NCBI GenBank assembly: GCA_947448205.1
Contig: CANFNL010000010.1
Span: forward strand, 1 to 36,910
DNA from: Bacteriovoracaceae bacterium
GTDB taxonomy: Bacteria > Bdellovibrionota > Bacteriovoracia > Bacteriovoracales > Bacteriovoracaceae
Length of the DNA: 36,910 nt
Direction of reading: 5' to 3'
Part shown: positions 16,530-24,838 of the stretch, piece by piece
How positions within the stretch are numbered: the stretch's first letter is position 1
Layout of the letters: every line of letters begins with the position of its first letter
Notes under the pieces: model-generated
Databases searched by the model: none
Told to the model about the DNA's origin: nothing
Seen by the model: only the letters and a program-made list of their open reading frames with translations
Made by a program: the position numbers and the translations under genes

Positions 16530-17357
16530 ATGAACACACGCGCCCTCACTCTGGCCCTAGTTATCGCAGCATTTGCCATGATGATGGTTTACACATATAT
16601 CGACGATCAAAAAGCCGCCATGATTAAACAATATGGAATCCGAAGTTCAGTCATCGTCGCTAAAGTAGATATTCAAGAATTAGAACTAGTTGATGATTCC
16701 AAAGTTGAAGTCATAACTGTGCCTGAAAATTTTCTTGCTCCTGGGCATTTTAAATCTGTTAAAGAATTAGAAAATACAATTGCCACAGTTCCTATAATGA
16801 AGGGCGAACAAATTACTAAACCACGATTGACTTATCCAGGTGTAAAAACCGGATTATCTAGACAAGTGTCCATGGGGAAGCGAGCTGTTGCTATAAACAC
16901 AACTGAGCGAGATGCTGTTGGAAGATTAATTAAACCAGGCGATCGAGTAGACGTCTTGGCAACAATTGATATTTCTCAAGGAGCTAGACAGGATTTAAGA
17001 AAAACGAAAACAATTTTACAAGATGTACTCATTCTTTCTACCGGAACGAGTATGACAAATTCAATTCCTATCGATGCGGTTGTTTCACCAGCAACAAAAA
17101 TTGTAAGAACAATGAACCTAAACACATACACTACTTATAATACAATAACCCTAGAGCTTGAGCCCTATGATGTTCAAAAGCTTTCGTTTATTCTTGGGAG
17201 TAACGGTAACCTTTCACTTGCGCTTCGGAATAATGCAGATAAGGAACCAGTGCGTTTAAAGGCTACTCAGATTTATGACATATTAGGAGAAGATGCTTCT
17301 GAAGCTAAAATATATTTCAATGACAAGTACAATAAAGAGAATAAGAATGCTCAATAA
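16530..17357 (+). CDS. cpaB: Flp pilus assembly protein CpaB/RcpC
   Basis: N-terminal TM, SAF-like VIVAKVDIQELELVDDSKVEVI, GRLIKPGDRVDVLATID, ILQDVLIL; ATG at 16530. Confidence 0.9.
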   Translation: MNTRALTLALVIAAFAMMMVYTYIDDQKAAMIKQYGIRSSVIVAKVDIQELELVDDSKVEVITVPENFLAPGHFKSVKELENTIATVPIMKGEQITKPRLTYPGVKTGLSRQVSMGKRAVAINTTERDAVGRLIKPGDRVDVLATIDISQGARQDLRKTKTILQDVLILSTGTSMTNSIPIDAVVSPATKIVRTMNLNTYTTYNTITLELEPYDVQKLSFILGSNGNLSLALRNNADKEPVRLKATQIYDILGEDASEAKIYFNDKYNKENKNAQ

Positions 17358-18852
17358 GTTCTATCTTTTTTTGTTTTTTATTTTGCTAAGTTTAAACTTG
17401 CTTGGACAAGACGAGGCAGCACAAAAAGATGAAACTCCTAAAGAAATTGATGTCATCGTTAATTTAGAAAAAATTATTCAGTTAGACTTTGTTCCTTATA
17501 CGGGTGCAGGTGGAGTTAAGTTAGGAAATGAGAATTTAGCTTCACTGCAAATTGTGCCTGCCAAAAAGCAAATTAATCTCATTGGAACAAAGGCCGGCGA
17601 AACAACACTCAATGTGCGAGATTCAGCTGGTGATATTCGTGCAAAGTACTTAATAAAAGTTTCAGGCTCTGATCAGTCTAAAGTAGTAGGGCAGCTTAAA
17701 GATCTCTTGAATGAAGTGGAGGGATTGGAGATTGGGATCAAGGGAGATGCGGTTTATGTTGGTGGGCAAATAGTTGTTCCCAGCGATATAGGTAAAGTTG
17801 TTGTTATCTTAGATAAATATCCTGATGTTTTAAGACTTGTTGAACTTTCACCTCAAACTCAATTAATCATTGCCAAGAAAATGCAGGATGAAATCCAAAA
17901 AAGTGGCTACAAGGATCTCACAGTGAGAGTTGTTAATGGTAGTTTTTGGATTGAGGGAGTTGCTGGGACTGAAGAAAAAGATAGGCCTAGAATAGTTCAA
18001 TTGGTTGAAGCTTATCTTCCTGATCAAATTCAAAATCTCGCCAGACGAACTGATTCAGTTCAATCAATAAAAAAGAAACCCTATGAAATTCTTGTCACTT
18101 ATAACGAGAAACCACCTCCAAAGCCTACACCAAAGCTCTTTAAATTAACGGCACAATTTGTAGAATTAACTAAAGGCTATGATCGCCTTTTTGCTTTTAC
18201 ATGGACTCCTTTTATTGGCTCTGATGGTGGACAAATTGCCATCGGCAAAAGTAACAGTGGAGGAGTGACGACAAGCTCTAATGGAACACTTGCTGCCACT
18301 ATTTCACATTTATTTCCAAAGTTAAATTCTGCTAAAAGTGCTGGTCATGCTCGAGTTGTGCAATCTGCAGTCCTGGTAGTCACTGAAAATGAAACCGGAA
18401 ATATAAAAAAACAAACAACTATTCCTTACCAAATTGGAAACACAGACAACGCTAAAGCGGGAAGTGCATCATCTGGGTTAAATATGAGTATTAAGCCCAA
18501 CATGGAACAAGATGAGAAAATTAAATTAAAAATTACAATAGATATAAGTTCAGCCTCTGGAGATGCGCCACCACAAACATTGTCAAACTTTGTTGATACT
18601 ACTGTTGTTGTAAAGTCTCAAGAATCTGCCGTCATTGGTGGGGTTGTTGTTAATAAAGCTTCAACTGACTTTGACAAAGACGGAGATAGGCCAACATCTA
18701 CTGATGGTAGTGCTCTCTTTTCATTTATCAAATCAAAAAAATACTCAACCAGCCGAAGTCAATTTGTAATCTTTGTTACTCCAGAAATTATTGAATCAGC
18801 TTCTAGTGGTGCTTCTGATATAGAGAGAAAGTTTAGAAAAAGGAGCCGATAA
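17347..18852 (+). CDS. cpaC: Tad secretin CpaC/RcpA
   Basis: Signal peptide MLNKFYLFLFFILLSLNLLG; secretin N-terminal domain, BON-like segment, C-terminal secretin beta-domain with ARVVQSAVLVV and ESAVIGGVV; ATG 17347. Confidence 0.85.
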   Translation: MLNKFYLFLFFILLSLNLLGQDEAAQKDETPKEIDVIVNLEKIIQLDFVPYTGAGGVKLGNENLASLQIVPAKKQINLIGTKAGETTLNVRDSAGDIRAKYLIKVSGSDQSKVVGQLKDLLNEVEGLEIGIKGDAVYVGGQIVVPSDIGKVVVILDKYPDVLRLVELSPQTQLIIAKKMQDEIQKSGYKDLTVRVVNGSFWIEGVAGTEEKDRPRIVQLVEAYLPDQIQNLARRTDSVQSIKKKPYEILVTYNEKPPPKPTPKLFKLTAQFVELTKGYDRLFAFTWTPFIGSDGGQIAIGKSNSGGVTTSSNGTLAATISHLFPKLNSAKSAGHARVVQSAVLVVTENETGNIKKQTTIPYQIGNTDNAKAGSASSGLNMSIKPNMEQDEKIKLKITIDISSASGDAPPQTLSNFVDTTVVVKSQESAVIGGVVVNKASTDFDKDGDRPTSTDGSALFSFIKSKKYSTSRSQFVIFVTPEIIESASSGASDIERKFRKRSR

Positions 18853-18853
18853 A

Positions 18854-21049
18854 ATGGCAGGTCATATAATTACTATTATTGGAGGAAAGGGCGGATTGGG
18901 AAAGTCTCAAGTTGCTGCCAATCTCGCCTTTGCCTATGCAATTGAGGGAAAAGTAAAAACACTCTTATTAGATTTTGATCAAAAAGCTAGCGGTGATCAA
19001 GATTTTATTACGGGTATGAAAGGTAAGAAAAACATCAAGGAGCTTGCAGAGTTTAAAGGTGCTATAGACCCAAACTCGATTCAACAATTCGTAAATATGA
19101 ATCAAAATGTTTTTTATATCGGAATGCCAAGTGATCCAGTTGCGACTAATGGAATAGAAGTTGAAGCTTTGGGGAGGACGCTAAAAGCTGTTACAAATAT
19201 ATATCCAATCACTATCATTGATGCAGGAAGCGAATTAACTCCGCTTGCCATTAAAGCTTTAGAATTTTCTACACTTATTTTTGTAGTTGTTACACCAGAT
19301 ATTCTCGCACTTAATCAAACGAAGAGGCTTTACTCTGATCTAGTAACTATGATGTTTCCCAAAGATATGATTCAATTTTTAGTCAATCAAACTCAGCAGG
19401 GTCACCCTGTCACAAATGATGTCATTACTAAAACATTAGGTAAGCCGATTTTTTCGGCTATCGCTAAAGATGATCAGAGTTGTATTTTGGCACTCAATCA
19501 AAAAAAACCAGTAATTCTTGTGGCAAGAGGCAGTGCTTTTTCGAAGGGAATTATTGATACCGTTAGAAAGCTAAATGAGAAGAGTGTTTTAAAAACACTT
19601 GAAAAATTATCTAAGCCAGCAGATGCTGGTATTAAAAAAGATGAGCCTAAAGACGCTAGCGGTGTACCGATTAAAAGTGGAAAAAATCCATGGACAGAAT
19701 TAAAATCACGCATCCATAAAGCCCTTGTCGAAGAAATGGATTTGAAAAAAGCCGATGACAACGATCCTAAAGCTCAAATTATCTTGAAAGAGCAAACTAA
19801 AAAAATAGTTGTAGAGCTTTTAGGTAAAGAAGATACCAAGGGAGTCCTAAATTCACGCGACGACATGAATCAAATTGTTAAGGAAATTATTGATGAAGCC
19901 TTGGGCCTTGGACCGCTAGAGGACCTACTAAGGGATAAGACTGTTTCTGAGGTAATGGTTGTCGGCCCCTATAAAATTTATTATGAGCAAAGTGGTAAAT
20001 TAAAATTATCAGATGTTACCTTTACTAATGATCGACAAGTCTTAAATGTAATTGAAAGAATTGTTGCTCCGATTGGTCGTCGCATCGATGAGAAGACACC
20101 TTATGTTGATGCTCGATTAAAAGACGGATCACGTGTTCATGCAATTATTCCACCTTCATCTATTGATGGCTGTACAATTACGATTAGAAAATTTCCAGAT
20201 AAGCGCCTAACTTATAAAGATCTAGTGAAATATGGATCGATGACTGAAAGTATGGCGGATTTTCTTCGTATTGCGGTTGAAGCACATAGAAATATTATTG
20301 TTTCAGGCGGTACCGGTTCAGGAAAAACAACACTGATAAATGTACTTGGTGGTTTTATTCAATCCAACGAACGCATTATCACCTGTGAAGACTCGGCCGA
20401 ACTCAATTTTCCCCAAGAGCATATCGTTCGACTTGAAACACGACCACCTTCTCTTGAAGGAGATGGCGCAATTGATATTCGTTGTCTTGTAAAGCAAACT
20501 CTTCGTATGCGTCCAGATAGAATTGTAGTTGGAGAGTGTCGTGGAGGTGAAACATTGGATATGTTACAGGCAATGGGAACTGGTCATGATGGTTCAATGA
20601 CAACTGTCCACTCTAATAATCCTCGTGAATGTATTGGACGTCTAGAAACATTAGTCCAATATGCTGGAACTTCAATTTCTGCACGGGCCATTAAAGAAAT
20701 GATCGCCAGCGCTGTTCATATGATTATTCAGCAGTCTCGTTTAGATGATGGATCAAGAAGAGTTATGTACATAACAGAAATTGGTGGCCTGCAAGGGGAT
20801 ACTGTTATCTTGCAGGATATTTTTCTTTTTGTTCAAAAAGATGTTGATAAGAGTGGAAAAATTATTGGAGAGTTTCAAGCAACGGGATTCATTCCTAAAT
20901 TTATTGAAGTCCTCGAGAGAAAAGGCTGGAACATTCCAAGAGGAATTTTTTCTAATCGGCCGCCTCCTGCGACGACTCCAGCTCCAGTTGCTCCAGCTCC
21001 AGTTGCTCCACCAACTACTTCGGCAGTGAAGCTGCCAGTGAAGAAATAG
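18854..21049 (+). CDS. cpaF: Fused CpaE/TadZ (ParA/MinD-like ATPase) and CpaF/TadA (secretion ATPase)
   Basis: N-term IIGGKGGLGKSQVAANLAFA deviant Walker A; C-term VSGGTGSGKTTLINVL, ITCEDSAEL, RMRPDRIVVGECRGGETLDMLQAMGTGHDGSMTTVHSN; one continuous 731-aa ORF. Confidence 0.93.
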   Translation: MAGHIITIIGGKGGLGKSQVAANLAFAYAIEGKVKTLLLDFDQKASGDQDFITGMKGKKNIKELAEFKGAIDPNSIQQFVNMNQNVFYIGMPSDPVATNGIEVEALGRTLKAVTNIYPITIIDAGSELTPLAIKALEFSTLIFVVVTPDILALNQTKRLYSDLVTMMFPKDMIQFLVNQTQQGHPVTNDVITKTLGKPIFSAIAKDDQSCILALNQKKPVILVARGSAFSKGIIDTVRKLNEKSVLKTLEKLSKPADAGIKKDEPKDASGVPIKSGKNPWTELKSRIHKALVEEMDLKKADDNDPKAQIILKEQTKKIVVELLGKEDTKGVLNSRDDMNQIVKEIIDEALGLGPLEDLLRDKTVSEVMVVGPYKIYYEQSGKLKLSDVTFTNDRQVLNVIERIVAPIGRRIDEKTPYVDARLKDGSRVHAIIPPSSIDGCTITIRKFPDKRLTYKDLVKYGSMTESMADFLRIAVEAHRNIIVSGGTGSGKTTLINVLGGFIQSNERIITCEDSAELNFPQEHIVRLETRPPSLEGDGAIDIRCLVKQTLRMRPDRIVVGECRGGETLDMLQAMGTGHDGSMTTVHSNNPRECIGRLETLVQYAGTSISARAIKEMIASAVHMIIQQSRLDDGSRRVMYITEIGGLQGDTVILQDIFLFVQKDVDKSGKIIGEFQATGFIPKFIEVLERKGWNIPRGIFSNRPPPATTPAPVAPAPVAPPTTSAVKLPVKK
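20981..21010 (+). repeat. Two exact 15-bp tandem copies (GCTCCAGTTGCTCCA) encoding a Pro/Ala/Val tail
   Basis: 20981-20995 and 20996-21010 identical; encodes APVAP repeats. Confidence 0.9.
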
Positions 21050-21058
21050 GTAAAGAGT

Positions 21059-21949
21059 ATGAGTATATTTTTAGAATTAGTAGGATTAAAAGGACTCATT
21101 TTTATAGTGGGCAGCTTAGTCTTTGCTCTAAGTTATAAATACTCTATTAATATTTTTGATTGGGTCGAGCATCAAACCTATGGAACTCGAACCTATATTA
21201 TGGAAAAACTGGAGTTTCTATTCATCGAAATTCCACAAGAGAAATTAACTTATATGTTACTTTGCTCTTCAGTTGGATTGGGTGGATTTATTTTCCTACT
21301 TTGTGGATTTACAGGCTCCTGGATTGCTGGAGCTATACTCGGTTCAATTTTTGCTTTTATGGGTTTCAAGGCTCCAAGAATGATTATTGATCATTTAGTG
21401 AAAAAGAGAATAAAAGCATACTCCATGCAAATGGTCGATGCTCTACAGCTTCTCTCCAATGGAATCAGAGCAGGATTATCAGTTCCGCAAGCCATTGGGA
21501 TGATCGTCGATGAAATGCCCGCCCCCATTTCTCAGGAATTTAATGTGCTCCTTCAGCAAAACAGAATAGGAGTTCCATTAGAGGAATGTTTTGAGAACTT
21601 AGCAAAGCGAGTTCCCCTTGAAGATAATGATATGTTCGTCTCTTCTATAAACATTTTAAGAGAGACAGGGGGAAATTTAGCAGAGACTTTTGACACTATA
21701 GTTGAAGTTATTCGCGAACGGGTGAGATTGCAGCAAAAAATAGACACATATACCGCACAAGGAATGTTTCAAGGTATGACGATAGGGGCAATGCCCTATG
21801 CTCTTGGACTTATTTATTATTTGCAAGATCCCGACTCAATGACTCCGCTTTTTACAACTGTCATTGGAATTCTGATGTTGTTTGTTGCTGTTCTTTTCGA
21901 TTTGGCCGGCATTTACGTTATAATGAAAATTGTAAAAATTAAAATTTAA
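21059..21949 (+). CDS. tadB: Tad inner-membrane platform protein TadB (T2SF domain)
   Basis: YSMQMVDALQLLSNGIRAGLSVPQAI and NILRETGGNLAETFDTIVEVIRERVRLQQKI. Confidence 0.9.
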   Translation: MSIFLELVGLKGLIFIVGSLVFALSYKYSINIFDWVEHQTYGTRTYIMEKLEFLFIEIPQEKLTYMLLCSSVGLGGFIFLLCGFTGSWIAGAILGSIFAFMGFKAPRMIIDHLVKKRIKAYSMQMVDALQLLSNGIRAGLSVPQAIGMIVDEMPAPISQEFNVLLQQNRIGVPLEECFENLAKRVPLEDNDMFVSSINILRETGGNLAETFDTIVEVIRERVRLQQKIDTYTAQGMFQGMTIGAMPYALGLIYYLQDPDSMTPLFTTVIGILMLFVAVLFDLAGIYVIMKIVKIKI

Positions 21950-22017
21950 AGAAATAGAGTTAAATGACCGAAATATTAAATGGATTTTTTTTTCTTAACA
22001 AGGACTTGGAGTTTATG

Positions 22018-23643
22018 AGTTTTAAAAAAGTACTGTTCGCATTTGCGTTGCTTCCAATGGTTGCATTTGGCGGAGTAAATTATAAAAATGGTAACTTCTA
22101 TATTACCTATACCGACATAATTGTTCCAGGTGGTGATCACGATTTAGAAGTGACGAGAACATACAATGCAAAATCTACTGAAAATGGTTGGTTTGGCTTT
22201 GGATGGGGATCGCTCTATGAAACAAAATTAGTCGTTTCAGCGGATGGCTCTGTCGTGGTTATTGAAAACGGCGCCGGGGCACAAACACGTTTTGTTCCTA
22301 AAGAAGCTATCAATGTAGAATCTGCTTCAAAAAAAATAGTAGAAGCTATGAGAAAAAAAGACCCAATGGGTGAAGCAGCTGCCAGTGCACTAGTGACAAG
22401 ACTTAATAAAGATGCGGAACTTCGTCAGGCTTATTCAAAAAAATACAACGTAGAGACAAAGCTTGCGGACGGAACAACTCTTTACTCCAATGACCGTGGA
22501 ATTCAAACAATCGTTAAAGAAAAAGATGGATACAAAAGAAGTAATTCAGATGGAAGAACTGATTATTTTGATAATGAAGGGAAGCTAGTAAAAATTACTG
22601 ATAAAAATGGCTATGCCATTTTATTTGAATATAAAGCAAAACAAGTTTATGCCATTAAAGACACTCAAGCTAAGCAAATTATTCTAGAATGGTACCCAGA
22701 TGGAAAAATAAAAAGTGCTTCTCGTGATGCTGAGAAGAAAACTAGCTATACATACGACACTAAAGGAAATCTTATACAAAGTAGTGATATTGGCAGCAAT
22801 AGCTACAAATACGAATACGACAACAACCACAATCTAACTCAAATTATTTATGCAGATAACTCCAAGATGCAAATTAAATATGATAAAAACTCTGCCGCCG
22901 TAGAAGTTATTGAGAGAAATGGAGAGTCTACAAAATATAAGTATGAAAGCAATCCTAAAAATCCAGAATTTCATTATTGGACAACTGTTATCAAAAAGCC
23001 AGTTGATGGAGCAGAGTCTTCAAGCCGTTATGAATATGAAATTAAATCGAAACCAGACGGTCAGCAATATACCTATAGAATTGCTACTGAGTTAGATGGA
23101 GTCAAAACCGAAACAATTTATTCAGAATGTTGTTCACTTCCTTTAAAAATTACCAGAGGAAAAGATGTCACAACTTTTGAATATAACGCGAGAGGGCTTC
23201 TAACAAAGAAAACTTCTACTAAAGGTGAGTTCGTTCAACTTGATTACGATGATAAAATTAATAAGATTACTAAAGTTATAAACAATGAAGGTTGGACAAC
23301 TTTTCAGTACGACAAATCTGGAAATCTTTCAAAAGCCGTCAATAGCACGGGTAAGTCTGTCCTTCTAATTTATGACCGCTTAGGGAAAATTACCAAAATG
23401 ATTGATCAAGAAAAAAATGATGAAAAATCAAGACGTACCCTTTCGTTTAAATACAACTCAATGGGAAAACCAGTTGAAATTGAAATGGAAAATGTTGGCA
23501 TCATCAATGTCGCTTACGACAATTTTGGGGAGATTAAAAAAGTAGAATCTAAAGCTGGAGCCAAAATGGCGTTACAGGTCACTCAAGCATTCCAATCACT
23601 ATTAAGTATTGTAAAACCAGCTGGTGTTAATTTAAATATGTAA
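22018..23643 (+). CDS. Secreted RHS/YD-repeat protein (DUF6531-like N-terminus)
   Basis: Signal-like MSFKKVLFAFALLPMVAFGG; DLEVTRTYNAKSTENGWFGFGWGSLYE; repeated YD motifs (YTYDTKGNLIQ, YEYDNNHNLTQ, FEYNARGLLTK, FQYDKSGNLSK, FKYNSMGKP). Listed ORF start is 21964; the Met at 22018 fits a signal peptide. Confidence 0.85.
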   Translation, partial: SFKKVLFAFALLPMVAFGGVNYKNGNFYITYTDIIVPGGDHDLEVTRTYNAKSTENGWFGFGWGSLYETKLVVSADGSVVVIENGAGAQTRFVPKEAINVESASKKIVEAMRKKDPMGEAAASALVTRLNKDAELRQAYSKKYNVETKLADGTTLYSNDRGIQTIVKEKDGYKRSNSDGRTDYFDNEGKLVKITDKNGYAILFEYKAKQVYAIKDTQAKQIILEWYPDGKIKSASRDAEKKTSYTYDTKGNLIQSSDIGSNSYKYEYDNNHNLTQIIYADNSKMQIKYDKNSAAVEVIERNGESTKYKYESNPKNPEFHYWTTVIKKPVDGAESSSRYEYEIKSKPDGQQYTYRIATELDGVKTETIYSECCSLPLKITRGKDVTTFEYNARGLLTKKTSTKGEFVQLDYDDKINKITKVINNEGWTTFQYDKSGNLSKAVNSTGKSVLLIYDRLGKITKMIDQEKNDEKSRRTLSFKYNSMGKPVEIEMENVGIINVAYDNFGEIKKVESKAGAKMALQVTQAFQSLLSIVKPAGVNLNM

Positions 23644-23678: not shown

Positions 23679-23966
23679 ATGAAAATTCTAATGACTATGA
23701 TTATGACGATGTTAGTGACGACTACTGTCTTTGCAGCTGAATGTAAGCTTAATACAGTGTGCTCTGCTGAAGATTGTAAGGCACTGAATTCGAAATATGG
23801 TATAGATGCAACCTCTAAGAAGTGTATTGATCCGGAGGCAGGTCAAGCAACATCCTTGGTTGACTGTAAAGATGGTGTGACAACGGGAACTCCTACCACG
23901 CCAGTGATAAGACCAGAAGCTCCAAAAGATGAGACTAAAACTGCACCGGTAAAAGGAAATTTGTAA
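23679..23966 (+). CDS. Small secreted Cys-containing protein (95 aa); possible Bd0108 (hit-locus)-like protein by position
   Basis: MKILMTMIMTMLVTTTVFAAECK signal peptide, five Cys, Pro/Thr-rich tail; GAAGGAG SD. Confidence 0.75.
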   Translation: MKILMTMIMTMLVTTTVFAAECKLNTVCSAEDCKALNSKYGIDATSKKCIDPEAGQATSLVDCKDGVTTGTPTTPVIRPEAPKDETKTAPVKGNL

Positions 23967-24017: not shown

Positions 24018-24126
24018 TTTTCTAGATCAAGTATCAAATCGTCTAAAGTTTAGATAGGCTGAAAAATTCTTGTTCATATTTTTCTATTCCTCAGTTTCAA
24101 CTTCTTTAAATCAGATTGAATTAATC

Positions 24127-24144
24127 TTGGCACCCTCAATGCAT
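24127..24144 (+). promoter_or_regulatory. Sigma54 (RpoN) -24/-12 promoter
   Basis: TTGGCACCCTCAATGCAT: exact TTGGCAC, GG-N10-GC spacing. Confidence 0.8.
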
Positions 24145-24176
24145 TAAATATAAGTAAACCAACACTAGGGGAACTT

Positions 24177-24362
24177 ATGAAACTTTTAATACTTTTAATA
24201 CTATCTCTTACTTCATTTAATATTTTTTCTGAAGAATTAGGCGAAAACCAAAAAAGTGAATGTCCTTATGCCAATCAATCAGCCAAAAGAGAAGCTAAGG
24301 TAATTGCTGTTGATTCAGTAGAAGAAAGTAAACAAGAAGCTACCAAAATTATTAGTAAGTAA
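24177..24362 (+). CDS. Small secreted protein, paralog A (61 aa)
   Basis: Signal peptide then GENQKSECPYANQSAKREAKV; shared motif with 24596-24781. Confidence 0.8.
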   Translation: MKLLILLILSLTSFNIFSEELGENQKSECPYANQSAKREAKVIAVDSVEESKQEATKIISK

Positions 24363-24387
24363 AATTTAGCTAGAATAGACTATCATT

Positions 24388-24425
24388 GCATAAAAAGCCC
24401 GAAAAAATGTTCGGGCTTTTTTATG
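24388..24425. terminator. Intrinsic terminator (possibly bidirectional)
   Basis: AAAAAGCCCGAA-AAAATG-TTCGGGCTTTTTT hairpin. Confidence 0.93.
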
Positions 24426-24535
24426 CCATTTTTTACATCAATACTTTGTTCATTTTATCAACACCTGCTTGTCCATTCTTTGGTCACCAAGAAAAAAATA
24501 CAGATATAAACTATCTAAATTCCATTCATAAAGCG

Positions 24536-24553
24536 TTGGCACGATGACTGCAT
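24536..24553 (+). promoter_or_regulatory. Sigma54 (RpoN) -24/-12 promoter
   Basis: TTGGCACGATGACTGCAT: exact TTGGCAC, GG-N10-GC spacing. Confidence 0.82.
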
Positions 24554-24595
24554 TAGTTAAAGCAAGAACCCATTAAAAATCGTCAGGGAGATTTT

Positions 24596-24781
24596 ATGAA
24601 AGCATTAGTTATAGCCTCACTTTTATTTTTTACATTAAGAGCAATGTCATCAGAAGAAGGTGAAAATCAAAAGACAGAATGTCCTTTTGCAGTTCAAACT
24701 GCTAAAAGAGAAGTTAAATTAGTAGCTCCTGCAACATCTGAGGAAGAGATAAAAAAAGAATCAAGCAATATTACAAAATAA
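24596..24781 (+). CDS. Small secreted protein, paralog B (61 aa)
   Basis: Signal peptide then GENQKTECPFAVQTAKREVKL; paralogous to 24177-24362. Confidence 0.8.
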   Translation: MKALVIASLLFFTLRAMSSEEGENQKTECPFAVQTAKREVKLVAPATSEEEIKKESSNITK

Positions 24782-24805
24782 ATCTTTATACCACTCCACG
24801 AACTA

Positions 24806-24838
24806 AAAGGCCCGTCGAATGACGGGCCTTTGCTTTTT
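24806..24838. terminator. Intrinsic terminator
   Basis: Perfect 11-bp stem AAAGGCCCGTC-GAAT-GACGGGCCTTT followed by GCTTTTT. Confidence 0.93.

Follow-up and report, generated by a model that had tools for sequence, protein, structure and literature searches.

Genetic access to the Bdellovibrio-type switch between prey-dependent and prey-independent growth comes mainly through the hit locus. A second point of reference is the control of pilA by PilS/PilR and σ54, in which a σ54 activator reads the state of the pilus. For the hit locus, published accounts describe Bd0109 as a 62.5-kDa RHS protein and Bd0108 as a 101-aa disordered secreted protein that binds Bd0109, link mutations in bd0108 to prey-independent growth, and report that Bd0108 alters piliation and growth mode (PMC3818213, PMC4267844). 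A 'small, non-coding RNA' has been reported at 96455-96716 of the HD100 genome, with levels raised in bd0108 mutants relative to wild-type bd0108 (PMC3818213). In Bacteriovorax marinus, the Bd0109 homologue BMS_0182 is described as having two small signal-peptide neighbours unlike Bd0108, BMS_0183/4 (PMC4267844).

The window analysed here is a stretch of 36,910 nucleotides from a member of the Bacteriovoracaceae (contig CANFNL010000010.1, positions 1 to 36,910). It contains a block of Tad and RHS genes followed by two small transcription units, and both the block and the units were compared with the systems above.

A Tad/RHS block with the gene order of the hit locus

The genes that precede the two units are as follows.

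17293..21949, forward strand: Tad pilus genes (secretin, TadZ/TadA-like ATPase, TadB/C-like)
21964..23643, forward strand: RHS/YD-repeat secreted protein, equivalent of Bd0109 (Pfam RHS_repeat, 8.6e-24)
23679..23966, forward strand: 95-aa secreted ORF in the position of Bd0108, without a σ54 site of its own

Reading from the secretin through the TadZ/TadA-like ATPase, the TadB/C-like protein, the RHS protein and the 95-aa ORF to the σ54 pair, the gene order corresponds to that of bd0112, bd0111, bd0110, bd0109 and bd0108. Judged from sequence, the block corresponds in the Bacteriovoracaceae to the hit locus of Bdellovibrio. As far as the published descriptions of that locus go (Bd0108/Bd0109 and bd0110-bd0119; PMC3818213, PMC4267844, PMC5430801), the two share the same succession of Tad, RHS and small secreted proteins, and in both, small disordered exported proteins are found next to a 60-kDa RHS protein. 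The RHS protein occurs in 54 of 59 family genomes and in 105 of 112 across the phylum, and in most relatives too it is directly followed by a small secreted ORF. In the Bdellovibrio genomes compared, this first ORF encodes 101 aa with N32, D36 and a CXXC motif, as described for Bd0108. The 95-aa ORF of the window had no detectable family in Pfam or NCBIfam; together with the RHS gene it stands directly before the σ54 pair. A first-pass annotation of the window had proposed a host- or prey-contact role for the paired units. The equivalence of the block to the hit locus makes such a role plausible and, on sequence evidence, no more than that.

Two features of the neighbouring proteins were also recorded. 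A single 731-aa ORF at 18854-21049 of the window joins a TadZ-like (CbiA/ParA) to a TadA-like (T2SSE) ATPase domain. The RHS protein of the family carries a vicinal Cys pair in the motif Y[ST]ECC[SG]LP, almost its only cysteine (L038-L067, L234-L293); the pair was found in 28 of an initial set of 30 genomes of the family and is absent from Bdellovibrio RHS proteins, HD100 included. Structure modelling of the RHS protein was poor (pLDDT 57).

Two tandem transcription units

Each of the two tandem units consists of a σ54-type -24/-12 element, a short leader whose ribosome-binding site is rich in purines, an ORF for a 61-aa signal-peptide protein and a terminator. ORF, promoter and folding checks bore out the coordinates and geometry given to them by the first-pass annotation. 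The regulatory unit reaches upstream of promoter 1, as far as the first palindrome in the list below.

24040..24056, forward strand: upstream palindrome 1, CGTCTAAAGTTTAGATA, 88 bp before TGGC; candidate regulator site, with the family motif TGTCTAAANTTTAGACA, helically phased
24127..24143, forward strand: σ54 promoter 1, TTGGCACCCTCAATGCA, exact GG-N10-GC, kept in all genus members
24177..24362, forward strand: predicted 61-aa exported single-Cys protein, copy 1
24385..24426, forward strand: terminator 1, fold -20.4 kcal/mol, z -6.0
24470..24486, forward strand: upstream palindrome 2 (weak), TGTCCATTCTTTGGTCA, 67 bp before TGGC; fits the phased bins, poor sequence match
24536..24552, forward strand: σ54 promoter 2, TTGGCACGATGACTGCA, exact GG-N10-GC
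24596..24781, forward strand: predicted 61-aa exported single-Cys protein, copy 2
24806..24831, forward strand: terminator 2, fold -21.2 kcal/mol, z about -6

Transcription of the first unit would start near 24154. Folding of the window units gave no notable fold for the leader RNA, and no Rfam family exceeded its gathering score. A C-rich 3′ UTR element, (A)CTCCACTCCAC, lies at 24796-24804, just 5′ of the copy 2 terminator, and is common to several genus members (L003 at about 5670, L004 at about 5620); it could be a single-stranded RNA element. The number of cassettes per genome varies and is usually one or two, so that the high expression which had been read from the duplication is not a necessary interpretation. 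In one genome (G009, L017) a transposase-like ORF follows the single cassette copy, and in another (G002, L008) the two copies are separated by an additional small secreted ORF that appears to be broken.

σ54 promoters are maintained across genera and families

A scan of the window for TTGGCAYN6TGCA with up to one mismatch matched the two cassette promoters and nothing else, which by itself is a weak test, as 1.1 matches are expected at that tolerance. Across the organism's own genome, exact matches to the same pattern numbered nine, against none for the reversed control. The DNA 3′ of the RHS gene was surveyed in 102 genomes of the phylum, and contained 90 strict σ54 sites on the gene strand and 2 on the other; dinucleotide shuffles of this DNA gave a mean of 0.76 sites and a maximum of 3. 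At least one site followed the RHS gene in 69 of these genomes, representing 8 of the 16 families sampled (f1, f4, f6, f8, f14, f15, f17 and f18). Downstream of 84 of the 90 sites, at no more than 130 nt, an ATG opens an ORF of 35-140 aa whose N-terminus is hydrophobic. Related genomes contribute to these counts, which are therefore not made up of independent events; the weight of the argument falls on the asymmetry between strands and on the range of families represented. Conservation of this kind, with 90 forward against 2 reverse sites and a shuffled mean of 0.76, rules out chance.

The promoter geometry is maintained across genera and families, and cassette and RHS gene likewise stay linked from genus to genus and in several of the phylum's families. 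Of 53 genomes tested, 52 encode RpoN, among them the organism's own, which also has 11 matches to the σ54-activator domain. These results strongly support the σ54 assignment of the first-pass annotation, and the window units are very likely σ54-driven genes for secreted proteins, as predicted from their sequence. Some RHS-bearing genomes lack the cassette. The presence of RpoN was considered as an explanation for this distribution and rejected, since RpoN is nearly universal.

The small proteins and their proposed role

The two window proteins are 43-48% identical to each other, have one Cys each, and share the motif GENQK[ST]ECP[YF]A.Q.AKRE, confirming an earlier description of this motif. 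Neither Pfam nor NCBIfam gave a match for the 61-aa proteins, in line with the earlier view that they belong to no known family. By sequence search, a homologue was found in all 14 genomes of the genus, 12 of which have the pair, and none was found in the 21 family genomes that belong to other genera. An orphan confined to the genus was nevertheless rejected, as synteny via the RHS gene recovers the cassette in other genera and families. Beyond residue 18, exactly one Cys is present in 82 of the 84 proteins identified in this way; no other feature of the protein is as constant, and the remaining sequence diverges fast. A profile built from the mature part of the genus proteins picked up 11 of 45 proteins from other genera at E<0.01 and nothing in shuffled sets, which makes the single-Cys family real between genera. 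With a whole-family profile, the 66-aa proteins of Bdellovibrio scored no better than shuffled sequences; in the absence of sequence homology to Bdellovibrio, equivalence across families is a matter of shared position, promoter, size and signal peptide, and of the single Cys. A charge-hydropathy plot classes the mature part as disordered in 73 of the 84 proteins, and a structure model of the 61-aa protein had a pLDDT of 58, low apart from the signal helix. The mature protein is probably disordered, as is Bd0108.

Relative to Bd0108, the window 61-aa proteins come in addition to the protein at the Bd0108 position, carry a single Cys and no CXXC, show no detectable similarity, and are provided with σ54 promoters and terminators of their own. 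The arrangement described for BMS_0183/4 of B. marinus, a member of the same family, is, by that published description, probably of the window type. A mixed disulfide between the small-protein Cys and the vicinal Cys pair of the RHS protein was also considered; co-occurrence of the two fell short of significance (Fisher p 0.09), and the pair is absent from HD100, leaving this candidate unsupported.

The explanation that best accounts for these observations, to which we would give roughly even chances, is that the cassettes encode σ54-induced periplasmic single-Cys microproteins that tune the RHS/pilus apparatus of the hit locus. An activator sensing the state of the envelope, the pilus or prey contact would switch on RpoN-dependent transcription, and the short, separately terminated mRNAs would yield a pulse of exported, probably disordered microprotein. 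In the periplasm, this microprotein would tune the Bd0109-type RHS protein and the pilus apparatus, adding an inducible component alongside the Bd0108-type protein that the operon encodes. That the small protein acts on the RHS/pilus apparatus, taken as a separate proposition, falls a little short of an even prospect. The logic would be analogous to that of PilS/PilR, σ54 and pilA, where an activator that reads pilus state drives a small exported pilus-related product; unlike the pilA product, the window 61-aa products have no prepilin cleavage site by eye.

The fast divergence of the sequence around a fixed signal peptide and Cys, the tandem copies, the dedicated switch and terminator, and the adjoining Tad genes would also suit a peptide released against prey or rivals, made in a contact-induced burst and delivered through or beside the Tad/RHS apparatus. 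We regard this as unlikely, given that the product is short and of low complexity, that no recognisable toxin or immunity partner occurs in the unit, and that the HD100 unit is reported to be up in prey-independent bd0108 mutants and not, as a prey weapon would be, in the wild-type attack phase.

An upstream palindrome shared with genes for envelope proteins

A de novo search for palindromic motifs in the 220 bp upstream of 81 promoters found TGTCTAAANTTTAGACA, with a log-likelihood of 418 compared with 41-46 for shuffles; in the genus by itself, the log-likelihood was 170 compared with 25-36. Its positions fall into bins near -57, -67, -76, -87, -97, -106 and -125 from TGGC, with a Rayleigh R of 0.73 at 10 bp (p about 1e-14, kinship ignored). 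Such phasing would place the palindromes on the same face of the helix, as expected of an activator site.

In the near-complete genome of a genus relative (G003), TGTCTAAANTTTAGACA occurs at 37 places, 8 of them perfect, compared with 15 for a control pattern. Many of these palindromes (loci L199-L231) precede exported proteins and lipoproteins without a σ54 element, and the sites are possibly those of an envelope regulon. The reading of the palindrome as the site of a dedicated σ54 activator, which its phasing would suit, is put in doubt by its occurrence before genes without σ54 sites; its many copies before such exported proteins and lipoproteins mark it as the probable site of a regulator of envelope proteins, which may not be the only factor acting on the σ54 units. 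Both elements are found together at some other genes: in the same genome, two tandem lipoprotein genes (L177/L179; G003:C1:672302 and 673078) have identical σ54 cores, TGGCACGACTGTTGCT, and the palindrome at -87.

The excess of palindromes, many of them before exported proteins, the tandem lipoprotein genes with both palindrome and σ54 site, and the one near-invariant Cys are what might be seen if the 61-aa proteins served a general envelope response, as a redox, metal or stress buffer, with adjacency to the RHS gene reflecting shared regulation and nothing more. A general stress protein would, however, have no need of a linkage to the RHS gene that persists across genera and families, and this reading appears improbable beside that of a microprotein tuning the RHS/pilus apparatus.

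The HD100 'sRNA' read as an mRNA

In Bdellovibrio, a signal-peptide ORF of 66 aa with one Cys follows Bd0108, 75 nt 3′ of TGGCACACGCGATGCA. Its features in HD100 (genome G130; L142, G130:C1) are listed below.

96758, minus strand: beginning of the σ54-type promoter
96483-96683, minus strand: 66-aa ORF
96450: beginning of a terminator-like hairpin

The transcript would start near 96733. The identification of G130 as HD100 rests on the agreement of the coordinates and on exact primer matches, as both RT-PCR primers given in PMC3818213 match this genome exactly, inside the 66-aa ORF. Between two Bdellovibrio genomes the ORF differs by 18 substitutions, 15 of them at third positions, and the codon changes are 13 synonymous and 3 nonsynonymous, much like those of Bd0108. 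Given the overlap with the ORF, the primers inside it and the mostly synonymous substitutions, the transcript is best read as an mRNA; the pattern of substitution disfavours a non-coding unit. It is very probable from sequence and from the published positions that the HD100 'sRNA' is the mRNA of the 66-aa ORF, the match being one of coordinates and primers and not of strand. The HD100 unit has the same place, size and promoter type as the window units, whereas the 66-aa protein has no sequence homology with the window proteins; the RNA was described as non-coding and is here read as an mRNA. The RNA is absent among the attack-phase sRNAs listed in PMC3627812, and a literature search found no paper naming the HD100 66-aa ORF or a σ54 promoter there.

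A dual-function or regulatory RNA, with the transcript acting as an sRNA and the ORF secondary, would agree with the published response of the HD100 sRNA to bd0108 genotype (PMC3818213) and with the sRNA size that a short leader and terminator impart, but it is the least likely of the alternatives in view of the synonymous pattern in the HD100 ORF, the signal peptide and Cys conserved in highly diverged copies, and the lack of an Rfam match over threshold or a notable leader fold.

The tuning microprotein can be extended, more tentatively still, to the phylum: across much of it the hit locus may have an unrecognised second layer, in which RpoN drives periplasmic microproteins with a single Cys that report on the RHS/pilus sensor or reset it, the HD100 'sRNA' being the mRNA of one of them, and the growth switch would then involve σ54 feedback via a protein and not an RNA. 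What makes the window units interesting is that they tie in with the hit locus and that the HD100 sRNA can probably be re-read. At this locus, a conserved and inducible gene for a protein, published in HD100 as a non-coding RNA, offers a concrete, testable component of the switch; it points to RpoN (bd0843 in HD100, PMC3464611) and to the regulator site, and the mRNA reading turns follow-up away from sRNA target prediction. The reported rise of the HD100 transcript in bd0108 mutants fits with feedback of this kind.
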